This document shows positions 1,623 to 60,740 of a DNA stretch of 64,000 nucleotides, piece after piece. A program made the position numbers and the translations under genes. Position 1 is the stretch's first letter. Each line of letters starts with the position of its first letter. The DNA lies in contig NZ_AP025592.1 of the NCBI RefSeq assembly GCF_023169965.1, positions 1,984,001 to 2,048,000 of the forward strand, in the 5' to 3' direction. This DNA is from Anaeromyxobacter paludicola (GTDB taxonomy: Bacteria > Myxococcota > Myxococcia > Myxococcales > Anaeromyxobacteraceae). The notes under the pieces were generated by a model. The model was not told the DNA's origin, did no database searches, and was given only the letters and a program-made list of their open reading frames with translations.

Positions 1623-2936
1623 ATGGATCTCGACCCGCGCCCCCGCCTCGTCCCCCTCGAGCCCCGGCTCGTCCAGCTCGAGGACGGCACGCAGGGCGTC
1701 GTCCTGCGCGACCCCACCGGCGTCCTCACGCAGTCCGCGCTGGTGAGCCCGGGCGCCTACCTCGTCCTGGCCCACCTCGACGGCACGCGCACGCTGCCCG
1801 AGGTGGAGCGGGCGCTGGCGCTCCAGGGCCGGCCGGTGCCGCTCCCGGACATCGTGACGCTGGTGCGGCGGCTCGAGGAGTCCGGGCTCGTCCACGGCCC
1901 GGCGCACGAGGCGCTGCGGCGGCGCGCCCTCGAGGCCTTCCGCGCCCTCCCCGCCCGGCCGGCGAGCTGCGCCGGCGGCGCCTATCCGGAAGAGCCGGAG
2001 GCGCTGCGCGCGTTCCTCGACGGGTTCCTCTCGGAGGCCGCGGACCCTCCCGGCCGCCCCTCCCCCGCCCTCCCCGCCCGGCGGGGAGGGAGTGCCCCCG
2101 AGGCCCCGCCAGAATCGATCTCGCAGCGAGCCCCGCGGTCCACCCTCTCCCGCGACGCGGGGGAGGGCCGGGGAGGGGGCGGGCCGGCGAACGGCGACGT
2201 CCGCCTCCTCGTCGCCCCCCACATCGACCTCCACCGCGGCGGCGCCGCCTACGGGCACGCCTACCGCGCCCTCGCCGCGAGCGACGCCGAGCTGTTCGTG
2301 GTCTTCGGCACGGCGCACGCCACGCCGCCGCACCTCTTCACGCTCACCCGGCTCGACTACGACACGCCGCTCGGTCCGGTCCCGACCGACCGCGAGCTGG
2401 CCGGCGCCCTCGCGGAGGAGCTCGGCGAGGAGGAGCTCTTCGCCGACGAGCTCTGCCACCGGCAGGAGCACTCCTGCGAGTTCCAGCTGCTCTGGCTGCG
2501 CCACCTCTTCCCCGACCGGCCCATCCGCGCGCTGCCGGTGCTCTGCTCCTCCATCTCGCACCTCGACGATCCGGACGGGGAGACCCGCGCCTTCCTCGAC
2601 GCCCTCGCCCGGGCGGTCCGGGGGCGCAGGGTCTGCTACGTGGCGGGCGCCGACCTGGCGCACGTCGGGCCGATGTACGGCGACGAGGCGGCGCCGACGC
2701 CCGAGGCGCTGGCCGGCCTCGCGGCCGAGGACCGGCGCACCCTCGCGTTCCTGGAGCGCGGCGACCCGGGCGGCTTCCACCGCGACGCCACCCTCGACGA
2801 CGCGCGCCGGCGGCTCTGCGGGGTCGCGCCCATCTACGCCGCCATGCGCGCGGCCGGCGCCGGGGCGCGGCTCATCCACTACGGCCAGTGGAGCGACGGG
2901 ACCGACTCGGTGAGCTTCGCCGCCGCGGCGGGGTAA
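1623..2936 (+). CDS. Memo-family protein (AmmeMemoRadiSam system protein B type) with an N-terminal PqqD-like region
   Basis: Predicted 437 aa. Residues 1-120 look like a small PqqD-like winged helix (VLAHLDGTRTLPEVERAL, then a helix ending EESGLVHG). The Memo fold follows: GGAYPEEPEALRAFLDGFL leads in, then LVAPHIDLH (His200), VVFGTAHATPP, RQEHSCEFQLLWL and GADLAHVGPMYGD. These are the usual Memo metal-site and core motifs. Memo proteins are class III extradiol-dioxygenase-like folds whose bacterial role is unsettled; in many genomes they sit with an AMMECR1 protein and a radical SAM protein, neither of which is here. Residues about 144-188 are a Pro/Arg/Gly-rich insert encoded by a dispersed hairpin repeat placed in the loop between the first helix and the first core strand. 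ATG 1623 lacks a strong ribosome-binding site; start moderately sure. Confidence 0.85.
   Translation: MDLDPRPRLVPLEPRLVQLEDGTQGVVLRDPTGVLTQSALVSPGAYLVLAHLDGTRTLPEVERALALQGRPVPLPDIVTLVRRLEESGLVHGPAHEALRRRALEAFRALPARPASCAGGAYPEEPEALRAFLDGFLSEAADPPGRPSPALPARRGGSAPEAPPESISQRAPRSTLSRDAGEGRGGGGPANGDVRLLVAPHIDLHRGGAAYGHAYRALAASDAELFVVFGTAHATPPHLFTLTRLDYDTPLGPVPTDRELAGALAEELGEEELFADELCHRQEHSCEFQLLWLRHLFPDRPIRALPVLCSSISHLDDPDGETRAFLDALARAVRGRRVCYVAGADLAHVGPMYGDEAAPTPEALAGLAAEDRRTLAFLERGDPGGFHRDATLDDARRRLCGVAPIYAAMRAAGAGARLIHYGQWSDGTDSVSFAAAAG
2052..2185 (+). repeat. Paired-hairpin dispersed repeat, copy A (inside a coding region)
   Basis: About 134 bp. The left hairpin is CCCTCCCCGCC at 2068-2078 pairing with GGCGGGGAGGG at 2080-2090. 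The right hairpin is CCCTCTCCCGC at 2143-2153 pairing with GCGGGGGAGGG at 2157-2167 (one G-T pair). The outer ends GGCCGCCCC and GGGGCGGGCC are themselves imperfect inverted repeats. The middle 50 bp is not conserved between copies. This copy is read through in frame by the Memo-family gene. Further copies are at 2966-3009 (half), 43324-43463 (opposite orientation) and 57549-57661. Confidence 0.85.
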
Positions 2937-2965: not shown

Positions 2966-3009
2966 CTCCCCTCCCCACCGTGGTGGGGAGGGCCAGGGAG
3001 GGGCGGCCC
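2966..3009 (-). repeat. Half copy of the hairpin repeat, copy B, between convergent genes
   Basis: A single hairpin, CCCTCCCCACC at 2969-2979 with GGTGGGGAGGG at 2982-2992, followed by CAGGGAGGGGCGGCC. On the minus strand this matches the left half of copy A. The loop-proximal base pairs have changed together (GC to AC/GT), which keeps the stem. It lies 30 bp after the Memo stop codon and before the convergent zinc-ribbon gene, so it may also act as a transcription-ending hairpin. No T-run follows on either strand. Confidence 0.7.
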
Positions 3010-42045: not shown

Positions 42046-43317
42046 ATGCCAGGCTTCGCCCTCGCCGCCACCGCGCTCTACCTCTCCGCCGCGGCGCTCT
42101 GCGCCGGCGCCGGGATGGCGGCCTGGCGCCGCCGGGAGACCCGCGGGGCCCGCTCCCTCGCGCTGCTCCTCGCCGCCGCTGGATGGTGGGCGCTCTTCGA
42201 CGCGCTCGGCGTGCTCGCGACGGGCCCGCGGCTGAACCTCCTCTGCGCTCAGCTCCTCTACCTCGGCGTCGCGCCGGCGGCCCCGCTCTTCTCGCGCACC
42301 GCCCTCGAGCTCACCCGCGAGGAGCGCTGGCTCGCGCCGCGGCTGCGGGCGGCCGGCTGGGTCGTCCCGCTCCTGACGGTCGCGGTCGCGTTCACGAACC
42401 CGCTCCACCACCTGCTCTGGGCGCGCGTGGTCCCCGCCCCGGCGGGCGGCGGGATCGCGCTCTACTACTACGGGCCCTGGTTCTGGCTCTTCATCGCCGG
42501 CAACTACGCGCACATGGCGATCGGCACGGCCGCCCTCCTGCGCGCCGCCGGCCGCGCCGTGCCGGGCCTGCGCGGTCCGCTCGCGGTGGTGGCGGTCTCG
42601 GCGGTCCTGCCCTGGGCCGGGAGCGCGGTGTACATCGCCAAGCTCGGCCCCTGGCCCGGGATCGACTGGACGGCGCTCGGGGTCGCCGCCATGGGCGCGC
42701 TGCTCGCCTGGGCGGTGCTGCGGCAGGGGCTGCTCGACCTCGTGCCCATCGCGCAGGAGGCGGTGGTGGAGAGCCTCGGCGACGGGGTGCTGCTCGTGGA
42801 CCGCGGCGGGCGGCTCCTCCTGCGGAACCCGGCCGCCCAGGGCGCGCTGGGCCTCGGGCCGGAGGCGACCTCCGGCGAGGTCGCGGCGCTGGCCCGGAGC
42901 TGGGAGCGGGAGCGCGCGCCGGGCGAGCGCTGGCAGGAGGAGCTCGCCCTCGGCGAGGGCGACGGGCGCCGCTGGCTGGAGGTGGCGGCGAGCCCGGTCC
43001 GGACCGCCTTCGGCGAGGAGGCGGGGCGGCTCTACCTCGTGCGCGACGTGACCGGGCGGCGCCGCGCGCGCGAGGAGCGCGAGCGGCTCATCCGCGAGCT
43101 CGAGGACGCGGTCGGCGAGGTGCGCCGGCTCCAGGCGCTGCTCCCGATCTGCTCCTGCTGCCACCAGGTCCGCGACGACCAGGGCTACTGGCGGAAGATC
43201 GAGGCCTACTTCCAGCAGCGCACGGCGGTGCAGTTCACGCATGGCGTCTGCCCGGCCTGCCTGGCGCGGCTCTACCCCGGGGTGAAGCCGCCGCCCGAGG
43301 ATACGGGCGAGGCCTGA
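42046..43317 (+). CDS. 7TM-PAS membrane signalling protein with a Cys-rich end and no kinase
   Basis: 423 aa. Seven membrane helices in the first 230 residues, as in HisKA_7TM sensor modules. A PAS domain at about 240-345 (VVESLGDGVLLVDRGGRLLL) is followed by a short coiled coil. The C-terminus is a compact zinc-site-like motif with Cys369, Cys371 and Cys372 in LPICSCCHQVRDDQGYW and Cys402 and Cys405 in HGVCPACLARLYPG. I recall this motif at the ends of other bacterial signalling proteins. There is no histidine kinase, GGDEF or other output domain, so it must act through a partner or through the Cys motif. Downstream comes a hairpin repeat. Confidence 0.82.
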   Translation: MPGFALAATALYLSAAALCAGAGMAAWRRRETRGARSLALLLAAAGWWALFDALGVLATGPRLNLLCAQLLYLGVAPAAPLFSRTALELTREERWLAPRLRAAGWVVPLLTVAVAFTNPLHHLLWARVVPAPAGGGIALYYYGPWFWLFIAGNYAHMAIGTAALLRAAGRAVPGLRGPLAVVAVSAVLPWAGSAVYIAKLGPWPGIDWTALGVAAMGALLAWAVLRQGLLDLVPIAQEAVVESLGDGVLLVDRGGRLLLRNPAAQGALGLGPEATSGEVAALARSWERERAPGERWQEELALGEGDGRRWLEVAASPVRTAFGEEAGRLYLVRDVTGRRRAREERERLIRELEDAVGEVRRLQALLPICSCCHQVRDDQGYWRKIEAYFQQRTAVQFTHGVCPACLARLYPGVKPPPEDTGEA

Positions 43318-43323
43318 GGGCCC

Positions 43324-43463
43324 GCCGGCCCCCTCCCTGGCCCTCCCCCGCTTCGCGGGAGAGGGGAGGCTTCAGGGCTCGCGACCGGCACGCACCTCAA
43401 TCTCGCGTCGCGCCCCGAGGCACTCCCTCCCCGCCGCGCGGGGAGGGCTGGGGAGGGGCGGCC
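43324..43463 (-). repeat. Paired-hairpin dispersed repeat, copy C (intergenic, reversed)
   Basis: About 140 bp, in the opposite orientation to copies A and D. Read on the minus strand it gives GGCCGCCCCTCCCC, hairpin CCCTCCCCGCG/CGGCGGGGAGGG with small changes, a variable middle, then CCCTCTCCCGC-GAA-GCGGGGGAGGG and CAGGGAGGGGGC. It starts seven bases after the stop of the 7TM-PAS gene and ends before the promoter of the Gly-rich protein gene. Confidence 0.85.
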
Positions 43464-43491
43464 AGGGGCTCCCTGCGGCCGGCTGCCCCCG

Positions 43492-53508: not shown

Positions 53509-56478
53509 ATGGATCGCCCAACCGAGAGCACCCCCGCGCCCGCCACCGGCTGGTTCGCCAACTTGACCCTGCGGGCCCGGATCCTGGCCGGGTTCTGGAT
53601 CGCCATCGGCGTGAGCGTCCTCGTCGGCGCGCTCTCCTGGTACTGCGAGGCGCGCGTCGGCCGGGAGCTGCAGGACGCCGCCGAGCTGCAGCTCCCGAGC
53701 GTCTCGGCCATCGCCACCATGAACGAGGCCAAGTCGGCCGCGGCGCGCGGGTACCTGGCGGTGCTCATCCCCAAGGCCGACGGCGACTACCGGGCCCGGC
53801 TCATCGCCGACGCCGAGGCGGCGCTGGCGCGGCTCGAGCAGGGCCGGGCGGCCTACGAGAAGCTCCCCCACGACCCCGACGCCGAGCGGCTCTGGCAGGC
53901 CACCCTCGAGCCGCTCGGCACCTGGCAGCGCGGCGCGCGGGCCTGCCTCGACGCCGGCAAGGCGCGGGAGCGGCTGCTCTCGGGCGGCCGCGCCGCGGAG
54001 GCGGCGGCCCTGGAGGACTCGGTCTGGGAGACCTGCCGCGCCCCGCGCGCCAGCTTCGGCCCGCTCGCCAAGGCCTTCGAGACCCTGGAGGCGCACCACG
54101 CCGCGGCGGCGAGCGCGGTGGCGGTGCGCGGGCGTCAGGCGGTCGTCACCGGGAACGCGCTCACCTGGCTCGCGGTGCTCGCCGGCGCCGCCGCCGTCCT
54201 GGCCCTCGGAGTGGTGGTCTCGCGGCGGGGAGGCACGATGCTCGAGCAGCTCGGGGCCACCCTCGACCGGATCGCGCGCGGCGACGTCCCGGAGCGCCTC
54301 CGCGACGCCGCCGGCGCCGACTACAACGCGGTCCGCGACAGCCTCAACACCGTGATCGGCACGGTGGAGGGGCTGCTGGCCGAGCTCGGGCGGATGAGCG
54401 CCGCGCACGATCGGGGCGAGCTCGACGTGGTCCTCGACGCCGCCCGGTTCCAGGGCGACTACCGCAAGGTGGCGGAGGCCGTGAACGCCATGGTGGCCGG
54501 CCACCTCGCGGTGAACCGGAAGGCGATGGCCTGCGTGGCCGAGTTCGGGAAGGGCGACTTCGGCGCCCCCCTGGAGCGGTTCCCCGGCCAGAAGGCCTCC
54601 ATCAACGAGACCGTGGAGCAGGTGCGCGGGAACTTGATGTCCTTCCTCGCCGAGATGCAGCGGATGAGCGAGCAGCACGACCAGGGCGAGATCGACGTCC
54701 GGATCGAGGTGGACCGGTTCCAGGGCGGCTGGCGCCGGATGGCCGAGGGCGTGAACGCCATGGTCGCCGGCCACATCGCGGTGAAGAAGAAGGCGATGGC
54801 CTGCGTGGCCGAGTTCGGGAAGGGCAACTTCGACGCCCCGCTGGAGCGGTTCCCCGGCAAGAAGGCCTTCATCAACGACATCGTCGAGGAGGTCCGCGGC
54901 AACCTGAAGGGCTTCATCGCCGAGATGAACCGGATGAGCGCCGAGCACGACCGGGGCGACATCGACGTGGTGATCCCGGCCGAGCGGTTCCACGGCGACT
55001 ACCGGCGGATGGCCGAGGGCGTGAACGCCATGGTCGCCGGCCACATCGCGGTGAAGAAGAAGGCCATGGCCTGCGTGGCCGAGTTCGGCCGCGGCAACTT
55101 CGAGGCGCCCCTGGAGCGGTTCCCCGGCAAGAAGGCCTTCATCAACGAGACCGTCGAGCAGGTCCGCGCCAACCTGAAGGCGGTGATCGCCGACGCCGAC
55201 CACCTCGCGGAGGCGGCGCGCGCCGGCCGGCTCTCGGCCCGGGCCGACGCCTCCCGGCACGGCGGCGACTACCGCCGCATCGTGGAGGGCTTCAACCAGA
55301 CGCTCGAGTGGGTCAACGCGCCGGTGAAGGAGATCGCCGCGGTGCTCGGCGAGCTGGCCGAGGGGCACCTCTCGGCCCGCACCGACGCCTCCCGCTACCA
55401 GGCCGAGGCCCGCGAGATGGCGGAGCGGCTCAACGCCACCCTGGCGGCGCTGCTCGCCCCGGGCGAGGAGGCCCGCCAGGTGCTGGAGCGGCTCTCGGAG
55501 CGCGACCTGACGGCGCGCATGGCGGGCAGCTACCCCGGCGATCACGCCCGCCTGAAGGACGCGGTCAACCGCACCGCGGAGTCGCTCCACGAGGCGCTGG
55601 CCCAGGTGGCGGAGGCGGTGGCGCAGGTCTCGTCGGCGGCCAACCAGATCGCCGCCAGCAGCCAGGCGGTGGCGAGCGGCGCCTCGCAGCAGGCGAGCGC
55701 CATCGAGGAGACCAGCGCCAGCCTGGAGACGGTGGCCGGCATGGCGCGGCAGAGCTCCGACAACGCCCGCGAGGCGGATCAGCTGGCCCAGGGCGCGAAG
55801 AGCAGCGCCGAGTCGGGCGAGGCGGCGGTGGCGCAGATGACCGGGGCCATGGTCAAGATCCGCGCGGCCGCCGAGGGCACCAGCGCCATCATCAAGGACA
55901 TCAACGAGATCGCCTTCCAGACCAACCTGCTCGCGCTCAACGCCGCCGTGGAGGCGGCCCGGGCCGGCGAGGCCGGGCGCGGGTTCGCGGTGGTGGCCGA
56001 GGAGGTCCGGTCGCTGGCGCTCCGCTCCAAGGACGCGGCGCAGAAGACCGAGGCCCTCATCCGCGAGTCGGTGAAGCAGGCCGCCGCGGGCGAGAGCACC
56101 TCGCGCGAGGTGGCGACGCGGCTGGCCGAGATCGCCGGGTCGGTGCAGAAGGTGACCGGGATCGTGGCCGAGATCGCCGCCGCCTCGAAGGAGCAGGCGG
56201 GCGGCATCGCCCAGGTCAACCGGGCGGTGGACGAGATGAACAAGGTGACGCAGCAGAATGCCGCCAGCTCCGAGGAGTCCTCCTCGGCGGCCACCGAGCT
56301 CTCCGGCCAGTCGGAGGAGCTCGCGGCCATGGTGGGCGCGTTCAAGCTGGAGCGGCGGGCGGCCGCCCCCGCCGCGCCGGCGCGGGGCCCGCGCCAGCCG
56401 AGGCCCGCGCTGGCCGGCCGCGCCGCGGCGGACCCGAGGCTGGCCGAGCTCGACCCGCCGGACTTCGCGAGGGCCTAG
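53509..56478 (+). CDS. Methyl-accepting chemotaxis protein with poly-HAMP array
   Basis: 989 aa. Two membrane helices ([40 protein letters not shown]) enclose a periplasmic helical-bundle sensor. Residues 295-564 are three tandem 90-residue HAMP-like modules ([34 protein letters not shown]), followed by two diverged ones ([38 protein letters not shown]). The signalling hairpin ends in [20 protein letters not shown] and [18 protein letters not shown]. It should report to CheA/CheW. No C-terminal CheR tether pentapeptide is seen. ATG 53509 has AGGA upstream. Che genes are not nearby. Confidence 0.93.
54391..55200 (+). repeat. Three tandem 270-bp repeats inside the chemoreceptor gene
   Basis: Units 54391-54660, 54661-54930 and 54931-55200, each starting CGGATGAGC and each 270 bp (90 codons). 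Units share long identical DNA runs, such as the stretch coding [20 protein letters not shown] in units 2 and 3, including synonymous sites. This implies recent duplication or gene conversion. Confidence 0.88.
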
Positions 56479-58712
56479 AGCGCCGGCGCCGCGCCGGGGA
56501 GCCGCTCCAGGGCCCCCGTCGCGGCGCCCCCCGCGCGCACCTCGGCCTGGAGCCGCAGCGTGAACCGATCCTCCGCGCCGAGGCCGTACTTGTAGGGCTC
56601 GCGGCCGCGGAGCAGGTCGTAGCCGCGGGCGCCCTCGCGGATCGCGCCCTCGATCGCCTCGGCGTGGAGCAGGAGCCCCGGGCTGGCGCGCGCGGCGGCG
56701 GGGTCGAGTCCGGAGAGGTAGGCGTAGCCGCGGCCTCGCCAGAGGAACCCGTGCAGCGAGGCCACCACCCGGCCGCCGGCGAGGAGCAGCCGCAGCCGCA
56801 GGGTGCCCTCGCGCGCGGCGGCCCGCGCCGCCTCGGCGTGGAAGCGCCAGAGCAAGGAGGCGCCGAGCACGCCCGCCTCGCCCCGCCCCGCCCAGCGCGC
56901 GCGGTGCAGGCGGAAGGACTCGGCGAGCGCCGCGGTCACCTCGATCCCCGCACCCGCCAGCCGCACCTCCACCGGCCCGAGCCGCTCCAGCCGGCGCCGC
57001 CCCTGCCGCAGGTTGTCGCGGGCCTTCGCCGAGAGCCGCGCGCGCCACGCGGCGGGATCGCCGGGGAGGTCGAGCCCGGGACAGGCCGCCTGGGGCGCGG
57101 CGCCGCCCGCGAGCGACGGCGGCAGCGCCCCCGGCGCGAGGAGCGGCGAGCCGGGCGGGAGCGCCTCGAGGTCGAGCGCGTCGAAGGCCCCCGTGCCCGC
57201 GAGCCGCGCGAGGAGGGTCGCCGCGCCCTCCGGGGCGAGCGACGGATCGAGCAGCAGGTCCTGGTAGTCGGAGACGCCGCCGCCGAGGAGCCCGAGCACC
57301 CGGCGGCCGCCGCGGCGGTAGACGAACGACGGCAGCAGGGCCGCGAGCTCGCGCCCGCGGAAGAGCGCCGCCGCGAGGGGCGGCGCCGGCGGCGCGAGCT
57401 GGCGACCCCAGGCGAGGAGCCACCCGGGCGACTGGAACGGCGTGGCCGCCGGTGCGCGCCGGAAGAGGTCGGCCCAGGCGTCCCGCAGCGCCTCCAGTTC
57501 CGACCAGGAGGTCAGGAGCGCGGGGCGAAGGACCGCGGGGCTCCTCCTGGCCGCCCCTCCCCGGCCCTCCCCGCCCGGCGGGGAGGGTGTCCTCGCGGGT
57601 CCCGGCGCAGAGGCCCTCTTCCCCTCTCCCTGCAAGGGGGAGGGCGAGGGAGGGGGGGACCGCGAAGCGAGGCCGCCGCCGAGCTCCCGGTACAGCGCCA
57701 CGTAGCGCGCCGCCATCTCCCGCCCGTCGAACCGCGCCTCCGCCGCGCGCCGGCACGCGGCGCGATCGAGCCACGCCACCTCGCGCAGGGCCCGCGGCAG
57801 GTCCTCCGGCCCGTCCACGAGGAGCCCGGTCACGCCGTCCTCGACCACCTCCGGCAAGGCGCCGCGGCGGAACGCCACCACCGGCGTCCCGCAGGCGAGC
57901 GCCTCCATCGCCGCCAGCGAGCTCGTCTCCTCCACCAGGCTCGGCACCACGAGGCAGCGCGCCGCGGCGAGGAGGCGGCGCTTGCGCCGGAGCCCCACCG
58001 GCCCGACGTAGCGGCGCGCGGCGTCGAGCCTCGGCCGGAGCTCCGCGTCGAAGTGGCGCTGGTGGGCCGCGTACGGGAAGACCTCGCCGGCGACGAGCAG
58101 CGGGAGCCCGGCCGCGCGGGCCGCGTCGAGCGCGAGGTGGTAGCCCTTCTCGGCGCAGATCCGGCCCAGGCAGAGCGCGAAGCCGGGCGCGGCCGCCCCG
58201 CCACGCCGCGGCCGGAGCAGGTCGAGGGGGACGCCGTTCGGCACGCAGGCCGCGGCGGCGACGCCGGCCGGGAGCCGCGCGCGCTGCGCCTCCGAGACGC
58301 AGACGAGCGCCGTCCGGGGGCGGCTCGCGGCGAGCGCGCCCGGCGGGTAGAGCGCGGGCGGCAGGTGGAGGGTGACGAGGGCCGGCGGCCCGGGCGGCGG
58401 CAGGCACGCCGCGAAGTCGAGCCCGTGCAGGTGGACCACGTCCACCCGCTCCTCCCGGAGCGCCCGCGCGACCACCGCGCGCACCGCCGCCTCGGCGCGC
58501 GCGAGCGCCCCCTCGTCGAGCGGGCCGCGCGCCGCAGGGACGGCGAGGAGCGTCCCCGCGATCCGTGAGCCCTCCTGCGCCACCACCAGGGAGCGGTGCC
58601 CGGCCGCGGCGAGCGCGCGGTCGAGCTGCCAGAGCACCTGCTCCGCCCCGCCCGCGGCGCCCGGCCCCACCGGCGCGAGGGGCCAGGCCACCTGCAGGAC
58701 GGTCAGGGCCAT
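56475..58712 (-). CDS. Fusion of a GT4 glycosyltransferase and a CelD/FemAB-like GNAT acyltransferase
   Basis: 745 aa from ATG 58712, overlapping the stop of the PIG-L gene by ten bases. Residues 1-350 are a GT-B glycosyltransferase of family 4: [39 protein letters not shown], and the donor-site [20 protein letters not shown]. Residues about 351-388 ([24 protein letters not shown]) are encoded by a hairpin repeat. Residues 390-745 are a GNAT-fold acyltransferase of the CelD/BioF2 type ([47 protein letters not shown]). Deacetylase, glycosyltransferase and acyltransferase together suggest glycan building, probably surface or polysaccharide. A sequencing frameshift is not needed to explain it. 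Confidence 0.85.
57549..57661 (+). repeat. Paired-hairpin dispersed repeat, copy D (inside a coding region)
   Basis: About 113 bp. Left hairpin CCCTCCCCGCC at 57565-57575 and GGCGGGGAGGG at 57577-57587, identical to copy A. Right hairpin CCCTCTCCCT at 57622-57631 and AGGGGGAGGG at 57635-57644. The middle is shorter than in A and C. Read in frame on the minus strand as the linker between two enzyme domains. Confidence 0.85.
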
Positions 58713-59621: not shown

Positions 59622-60740
59622 ATGCGCACCCTGCTCGCGTGCCTCGCCGTCGCCCTGCTCGCCGCCTGCGGCGGCACGTCGCCGAAGTGCCCCGCCGGCC
59701 AGGCCCGCTGCGGCGGACAGTGCGTGGACCTCTCCACGGATCCCCTGCAGTGCGGGGCGTGCGGGAACGTCTGTCCCGCCACCGCCACCTGCACCGCCGG
59801 CGCGTGCGTCTGCCCGGGGACCCAGACCTCCTGCGGCAGCCTCTGCGCCGACCTGCAGACCGACGCGCAGCACTGCGGCACCTGCGGCACGAGCTGCGGC
59901 CTCGGCACCTGCCAGGTCGGCGCGTGCGCCTGCAGCCCCGGCGCGACCGACTGCGGCGGACACGCGGGCGTCTGCGCCGACCTGACGCGGGACCCCGGCC
60001 ACTGCGGCGCGTGCGGCACGGCCTGCCCGGCGACCTTCGCCTGCCTCCAGGGCGCCTGCGCCTGCCCCCCGAGCACCACGCAGTGCGGGGCGGCGTGCAG
60101 CGTGCTCGCCACCGACCCGCTCAACTGCGGCGCCTGCGGCCACGCCTGCGGCACCGGGTTCTCCTGCGGCGCCGGCGCGTGCACCTGCTCCGGCCCCGGC
60201 AAGCAGGTCTGCGGGGCGAGCTGCCTCGACACCACCTCCGACCTGAACAACTGCGGCGCCTGCGGCCGGGTCTGCCCGAGCGGCACGCTCTGCAGCGCCG
60301 GCGCCTGCGCCTGCCCGTCGGGGAGCACGGTCTGCGCGAGCGGCGGCGCCTCGACCTGCACCAACCTCAAGACCGACCCGGCGAACTGCGGGGCCTGCGG
60401 CAACGCCTGCGGCGCCGGCGCGGCCTGCTCGAGCGGCGCCTGCGCGAGCTGCCCGGCGCACGACAACGGGCTCGGGCAGCAGTTCCTGGACTGCGCGCCG
60501 CCCGACACCTTCACCCTCACCACCGCGAAGGAGGCCGCAAAGGCCTGGAGCGCGAGCGGGAGCGAGCAGGTGACGACCGGCTGCTCCGGCGGCGGCGCCG
60601 GGTCCACCTGCTTCGGGTGGCAGCGCTCCGACGGGACGTGCGGGATCTGGTGCTACGGCGGGACGCTCGCGGGCGCGGTGTTCCAGAGCTTCAACTTCAC
60701 CTGCGTCTGCTTCAACGGACCGCAGTCCGCCTGGCACTGA
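59622..60740 (+). CDS. Cys-rich repeat lipoprotein (myxobacterial type)
   Basis: 372 aa. Lipobox LLAAC with Cys16. Residues 20-280 are six to seven repeats of about 38 residues with the pattern C..G..C.DL.TDP..CGACG..C and closing GAC.C (for example LSTDPLQCGACGNVCPA, LATDPLNCGACGHACGT). The last 95 residues form a different domain with its own Cys (TCGIWCYGG, FTCVCFNGP). Cys-rich exported repeats of this sort abound in Myxococcales. Surface anchored, disulfide-rich, ligand unknown. Probably leaderless. Confidence 0.82.
   Translation: MRTLLACLAVALLAACGGTSPKCPAGQARCGGQCVDLSTDPLQCGACGNVCPATATCTAGACVCPGTQTSCGSLCADLQTDAQHCGTCGTSCGLGTCQVGACACSPGATDCGGHAGVCADLTRDPGHCGACGTACPATFACLQGACACPPSTTQCGAACSVLATDPLNCGACGHACGTGFSCGAGACTCSGPGKQVCGASCLDTTSDLNNCGACGRVCPSGTLCSAGACACPSGSTVCASGGASTCTNLKTDPANCGACGNACGAGAACSSGACASCPAHDNGLGQQFLDCAPPDTFTLTTAKEAAKAWSASGSEQVTTGCSGGGAGSTCFGWQRSDGTCGIWCYGGTLAGAVFQSFNFTCVCFNGPQSAWH

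Follow-up and report, generated by a model that had tools for sequence, protein, structure and literature searches.

The window analysed here, a stretch of 64,000 nucleotides from the genome of Anaeromyxobacter paludicola, contains a gene for a Memo-family protein with a palindromic repeat in its reading frame, which raises the question whether DNA of a repeat family has become protein sequence at this locus. Very probably this is the case, and the repeat, termed copy A, is best understood as a genus-restricted, REPIN-like element that was inserted into a loop of the Memo protein, proved neutral with regard to the frame and is apparently translated as a disordered loop.

With regard to the host gene, its assignment to the Memo family in the original prediction is borne out by matches of the 437-aa ORF to PF01875 (Memo; Pfam, 2e-31, 109 bits vs. 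a cut-off of 27) and TIGR04336 (AmmeMemoRadiSam_B; NCBIfam, 4e-25, 88 bits vs. a cut-off of 26), the latter beginning at residue 112. The best Foldseek matches are human MEMO1 structures, including 3bcz (E 1e-14), and the alignment-invariant residues are retained, among them H200, H232, H279 and H347. The nearest named relatives in the Memo search stem from Anaeromyxobacter species and the Myxococcales MAG BP5.bin31. Ahead of the Memo domain, the protein has an additional N-terminal domain of ~110 residues. This extension (window 1623-1950) is widespread in relatives. In structure searches it weakly matches lasso peptide B1 proteins as well as a sactipeptide enzyme (E 0.2-1); judged by these matches, it may resemble RiPP leader-binding domains. 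Several relatives (L017-L021) possess shorter ORFs without most of the N-terminal domain, and it is conceivable that the gene is split in practice, with translation of the Memo domain starting internally, downstream of the repeat. This is very improbable, as the helix preceding the repeat is itself part of the Memo domain, judged by the start of the TIGR04336 match, and distant relatives keep the domain order (matches spanning residues 6-434).

Positions 2052-2185 of the window form an uninterrupted in-frame stretch of the Memo gene, and the ORF is open throughout, with coding-like codon usage scores in the same frame on both flanks of copy A. The proposal that the repeat keeps the reading frame is in complete agreement with these findings. 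Positions 2052-2179 (residues 144-186) are matched by a profile built from element copies, and the closest other genomic copy is 78% identical over about 140 bases (E = 3e-26), such that the repeat originally predicted for this stretch is real. GC-rich coding sequence for proline, glycine and arginine is common in the genome, and the long linker might in principle stem from local low-complexity expansion in a GC-rich gene instead of an insertion. The probability of such an origin is negligible, since dispersed copies align with the stretch over its full length and orthologues lack it; the alignment of copies already contradicts this explanation.

In an AlphaFold model derived from 27 sequences (mean pLDDT 89.8), most of the Memo protein scores above 90, the insert has pLDDT values of 33-55, and residues 146-187, nearly all of them below 50, account for almost every residue under this value. 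The low-scoring stretch sits between helix 125-140 and strand 195-198, and copy A is predicted to constitute a disordered additional loop of the protein. Its position after the helix ALRAFLDGFL is as originally described; this helix, however, is the first of the Memo domain and not of the whole protein.

The linker between the G-x-YP and PHID motifs comprises 76 residues in A. paludicola, 57 in G001, the sole congener sampled, and 31-48 (median 38) across 29 further sequences. The segment corresponding to copy A is missing in 12 of 12 aligned Memo orthologues from other genera, while the congener contains a shortened, single-hairpin remnant at the same site and in the same frame, in which LSRGAGEGQGGG matches LSRDAGEGRGGG; the half that is left corresponds to the right REP-like unit (Table 1). 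The alignment with collinear orthologues, proposed as a check on insertion, thus gave the expected outcome, and neither a linker of similar length and sequence outside the genus nor a broken frame, both named beforehand as evidence to the contrary, was encountered. Because orthologues carry a low-complexity linker of their own, roughly 10-20 residues long, the net gain amounts to ~38 residues and not exactly to the 45 postulated. The in-frame, repeat-derived stretch as such stands, but the statement that other Memo proteins have only a short turn at this place had to be abandoned.

Table 1. Memo locus, parts of copy A and further repeat copies, given as positions in the window.
Feature	Positions	Strand	Evidence or remark
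Memo-family / AmmeMemoRadiSam system protein B gene	1623..2936	+	437 aa; profiles, fold
Copy A, palindromic element, in frame, Memo residues about 144-188	2049..2188	+	absent from other-genus orthologues
Left REP-like unit: 5' tail GGCCGCCCCTCCCC and hairpin CCCTCCCCGC/GCGGGGAGGG	2052..2096	+	alignment, consensus fold
Variable doublet spacer, unconserved among copies	2097..2138	+	alignment
Right REP-like unit, inverted: hairpin CCCTCTCCCGC/GCGGGGGAGGG and 3' tail complementary to left tail	2139..2179	+	alignment, consensus fold
Degraded left-half copy, ~30 nt downstream of Memo stop codon	2966..3008	-	profile match, 19.0 bits
Copy B, full, intergenic, just after stop of gene 42046-43317 (+)	43329..43466	-	
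Copy C, full, in frame, antisense in minus-strand gene 56475-58712, between glycosyltransferase and GNAT domains	57545..57656	+	

The element is a palindrome of ~125 nt with two REP-like hairpins in inverted orientation, i.e., it is REPIN-like. In an alignment of 29 full copies, two conserved blocks with hairpins of 10 bp (left) and 11 bp (right) flank a variable spacer, and weak conservation extends a short distance past both element ends. As the reverse complement of the right block resembles the left block, the element represents an inverted doublet of one REP-like unit. In the consensus fold, an outer stem encloses the two hairpins (27 pairs, -54.8 kcal/mol). Compensatory base changes are almost absent from this fold, with one pair only, and folding is therefore supported by complementarity and not by covariation. 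No Rfam family was matched in the window. Of 49 full copies, 39-44 are free of stop codons in any given one of the six frames, vs. 76% of random 125-mers from the window read in a random frame. Lengths divisible by three are over-represented (28 of 49 full copies); an explanation of this excess by selection was rejected, the copies being related to each other and mostly extragenic. In 49 full copies, neither the termini nor the flanking sequences show a conserved GTAG or CTAC, or a conserved CGTC or GACG, CGTC being the tag of the REP group to which RPE-4 and RPE-6 belong. No target-site duplication was apparent, with matches of flanking k-mers of 4-9 nt not exceeding background in 49 copies.

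The element model yields at least 112 matches in the genome of origin, a single contig of 4.59 Mb, at least 94 in congener G001 and 0-2 per genome in 22 further Anaeromyxobacteraceae, all of these counts being lower bounds because only part of the candidates was scored. Among 193 Myxococcota genomes, weak matches occurred in only six others (best E 4e-7). The repeat family is restricted to one genus.

Within a sample comprising the window and 73 genome stretches, which is not a full census, 121 copies were located: 53 full copies, 33 left halves, 15 right halves and 20 others. No gene runs into 39 of the 53 full copies, nine lie in frame inside genes and five at the C-terminal end of a gene. 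Around those extragenic full copies that could be classified, the flanking genes are convergent 16 times, tandem 16 times and divergent once, compared with 9, 23 and 9, respectively, among the gene pairs of the window, and extragenic copies are biased to gene 3' ends. At the Memo gene, repeat DNA is present both inside the gene (copy A) and just 3' of the stop codon (the half copy at 2966-3008).

A preference for gene 3' ends is also found for REPs, and every unit folds as a stable GC-rich hairpin, as the consensus energy given above illustrates. Based on these features, an intragenic repeat could act mainly as nucleic acid, be it as an mRNA hairpin causing pausing or as an attenuator of transcription or translation, the encoded peptide being incidental. 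We regard this as unlikely: copies inside genes are found in either orientation and in genes unrelated to each other, and with covariation limited to one pair, selection on the RNA level is not demonstrated.

Nine proteins contain full copies in frame, i.e., the Memo protein, a glycosyltransferase-GNAT protein, an M50 peptidase, a double ABC ATPase, a DUF4175 protein, an E2 acyltransferase, an ABC ATPase-permease, a DUF58 protein and an NtrY-like histidine kinase. The names E2, ABC, M50, DUF4175, glycosyltransferase and GNAT are based on Pfam, while those of the ABC ATPase-permease, the DUF58 and the NtrY-like proteins as well as the domain layout of the kinase were read from the sequence and not obtained by profile search. 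An AMP-binding enzyme additionally contains a half copy, and an acidic low-complexity region contains two partial ones. Automatic in-frame calls at L044, L178, L175 and L158 were dropped, as they concerned short ORFs or positions upstream of the start. With both orientations and several frames in use, the element has no dedicated coding frame. Wherever the layout is readable, in-frame copies sit at loops or between domains, e.g., between the lipoyl (4-76) and E3-binding (140-173) domains of the E2 protein and between the two ABC domains of the double ATPase; for the E2, ABC and M50 cases the basis consists of domain layout and codon usage only.

A comparison of four genes, encoding the Memo, DUF58, NtrY-like and glycosyltransferase-GNAT proteins, revealed empty sites for each of them. 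The glycosyltransferase and GNAT domains adjoin without a copy in G003 and G019. For the DUF58 protein, residues 1-193 and 228-334 of the query align on directly adjoining bases of the congener, and the DNA alignment shows a gap between flanks that are 88% and 86% identical. In the kinase, the copy (L172 2019-2107) is located in the dimerisation region after the HEIKNPL helix, where relatives have a short turn: in at least 13 of them the alignment breaks near query residue 195 and resumes at 231-233, with ~3 residues between. The congener kinase carries an altered, differently eroded insert at the same place, in which a 1-nt indel shifts the frame and other indels restore it. Dispersed copies in intergenic as well as in-frame positions, together with orthologues bearing empty sites, speak for counting the family among the protein-coding palindromic repeats.

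In both the Memo protein and the NtrY-like kinase, in-frame occupation of the site predates the divergence of A. paludicola and the congener. That the inserts were kept in two species could reflect a useful function, in which case selection would keep the loop for the sake of Memo function, e.g., for spacing or partner binding. We consider such an exaptation quite unlikely, as the sequence of the insert is not conserved, half of it has been lost from the Memo protein of the congener, the kinase insert has tolerated the frame-shifting indel, the loop is predicted to be disordered and unrelated proteins carry the same element.

According to the preferred reading, i.e., insertion of a repeat into a tolerant loop, copy A would belong to a miniature, non-autonomous REPIN-like family of ~125 nt with two inverted REP-like hairpins, and its entry into the Memo loop that connects helix 125-140 with strand 195-198 would date back to a common ancestor with G001. 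The gene would have stayed open because most copies are free of stop codons in six frames and the length kept the frame. The peptide is probably made, as a disordered loop of about 45 residues rich in proline, glycine and arginine, and copy A would persist, nearly neutral, because its location in a flexible linker does little harm. Selection would have removed copies that break genes or promoters, leaving those at gene 3' ends and in loops.

Movement would be brought about by a transposase acting in trans. The host genome encodes three Y1_Tnp proteins (Y1-transposase, RAYT-like; L072, L073 and L074), two of which are alike. No element copies lie within 1.5 kb of the three genes and, among the copies listed, none within 20 kb. 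An enzyme of the Y1/RAYT type is the leading candidate for mobilising the element, an assignment that we put forward tentatively.

Palindromic repeats that occur in frame have been described for Rickettsia, Wolbachia, enterobacteria, Neisseria and an archaeon (PMC2229807 and references therein). The Rickettsia palindromic elements (RPE; Ogata et al., 2000) measure ~105-146 bp and are located in intergenic positions as well as in frame in conserved protein genes, whose products tolerate them (reviewed in PMC2229807). The parallel drawn to them at the outset is right in kind, as both are palindromic repeats of ~100-150 bp with intergenic copies and copies in frame in protein genes (PMC2229807, PMC3733652). 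In contrast to the RPEs, the element described here is a two-hairpin doublet with variable spacer, most copies are open in six frames, and its host, a GC-rich myxobacterium, has a genome of 4.6 Mb. The element lacks the CGTC tag described at the end of Rickettsia elements (PMC3733652). Because of this and the layout as a REP doublet with variable spacer, the likeness concerns the mode of action and is not evidence of common descent. The repeats appear to form a separate, undescribed family; no report of such repeats was found for Anaeromyxobacter or its relatives in a literature survey covering mainly openly accessible papers.

With GTAG- and CGTC-tagged REPs and REPINs (PMC3733652, PMC3116915), the element shares inverted hairpin doublets with a spacer, singlet remnants and intragenic copies, some of which are ascribed to flexible linkers or loops. 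REPs likewise favour gene 3' ends and convergently oriented genes, and their intragenic occurrence in several other bacteria has been suggested to be tolerated in flexible linkers and loops (PMC3733652). Unlike them, the element has neither GTAG nor CGTC tag and stems of 10-11 bp, and no copy was found next to a RAYT gene. The MITE-like elements ERIC, YPAL/RU-2 and the 107-bp Neisseria element are likewise small, non-autonomous repeats read through in proteins, but are mostly accompanied by a target-site duplication (PMC2229807), which was not detected here.

Double CCCTCCCC-type hairpins, detected in the present analysis and not taken from the literature, are present on plasmids of Azospirillum brasilense (L266 1443-1539, L267 941-1038). 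They feature the same order of outer tails, two hairpins and spacer, with up to 95% identity in the right unit over ~40 nt, whereas the left unit differs and the host, an alphaproteobacterium, belongs to another phylum. The likeness may be due to common origin or to convergence. One of these Azospirillum elements is located at the 3' end, as annotated, of a gene for a P-type ATPase. That the stop-free doublet is a recurrent source of linkers in the genus, some of them functional, and that its architecture has spread between phyla together with its own enzyme, is a speculation to which we assign a low probability.

Copy A and its relatives extend the occurrence of protein-coding palindromic repeats to a GC-rich myxobacterium whose genome is not reduced, and the filled as well as empty sites within one genus make it possible to measure how old such inserts are, how well they are tolerated and at what cost. 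With regard to annotation, low-complexity inserts rich in proline, glycine and arginine in this genus may be repeat DNA and not domains. The window also contains long direct repeats in coding regions (54336-55175 and 59709-60449), with 270-nt units and Cys-rich units spaced ~123-135 nt.
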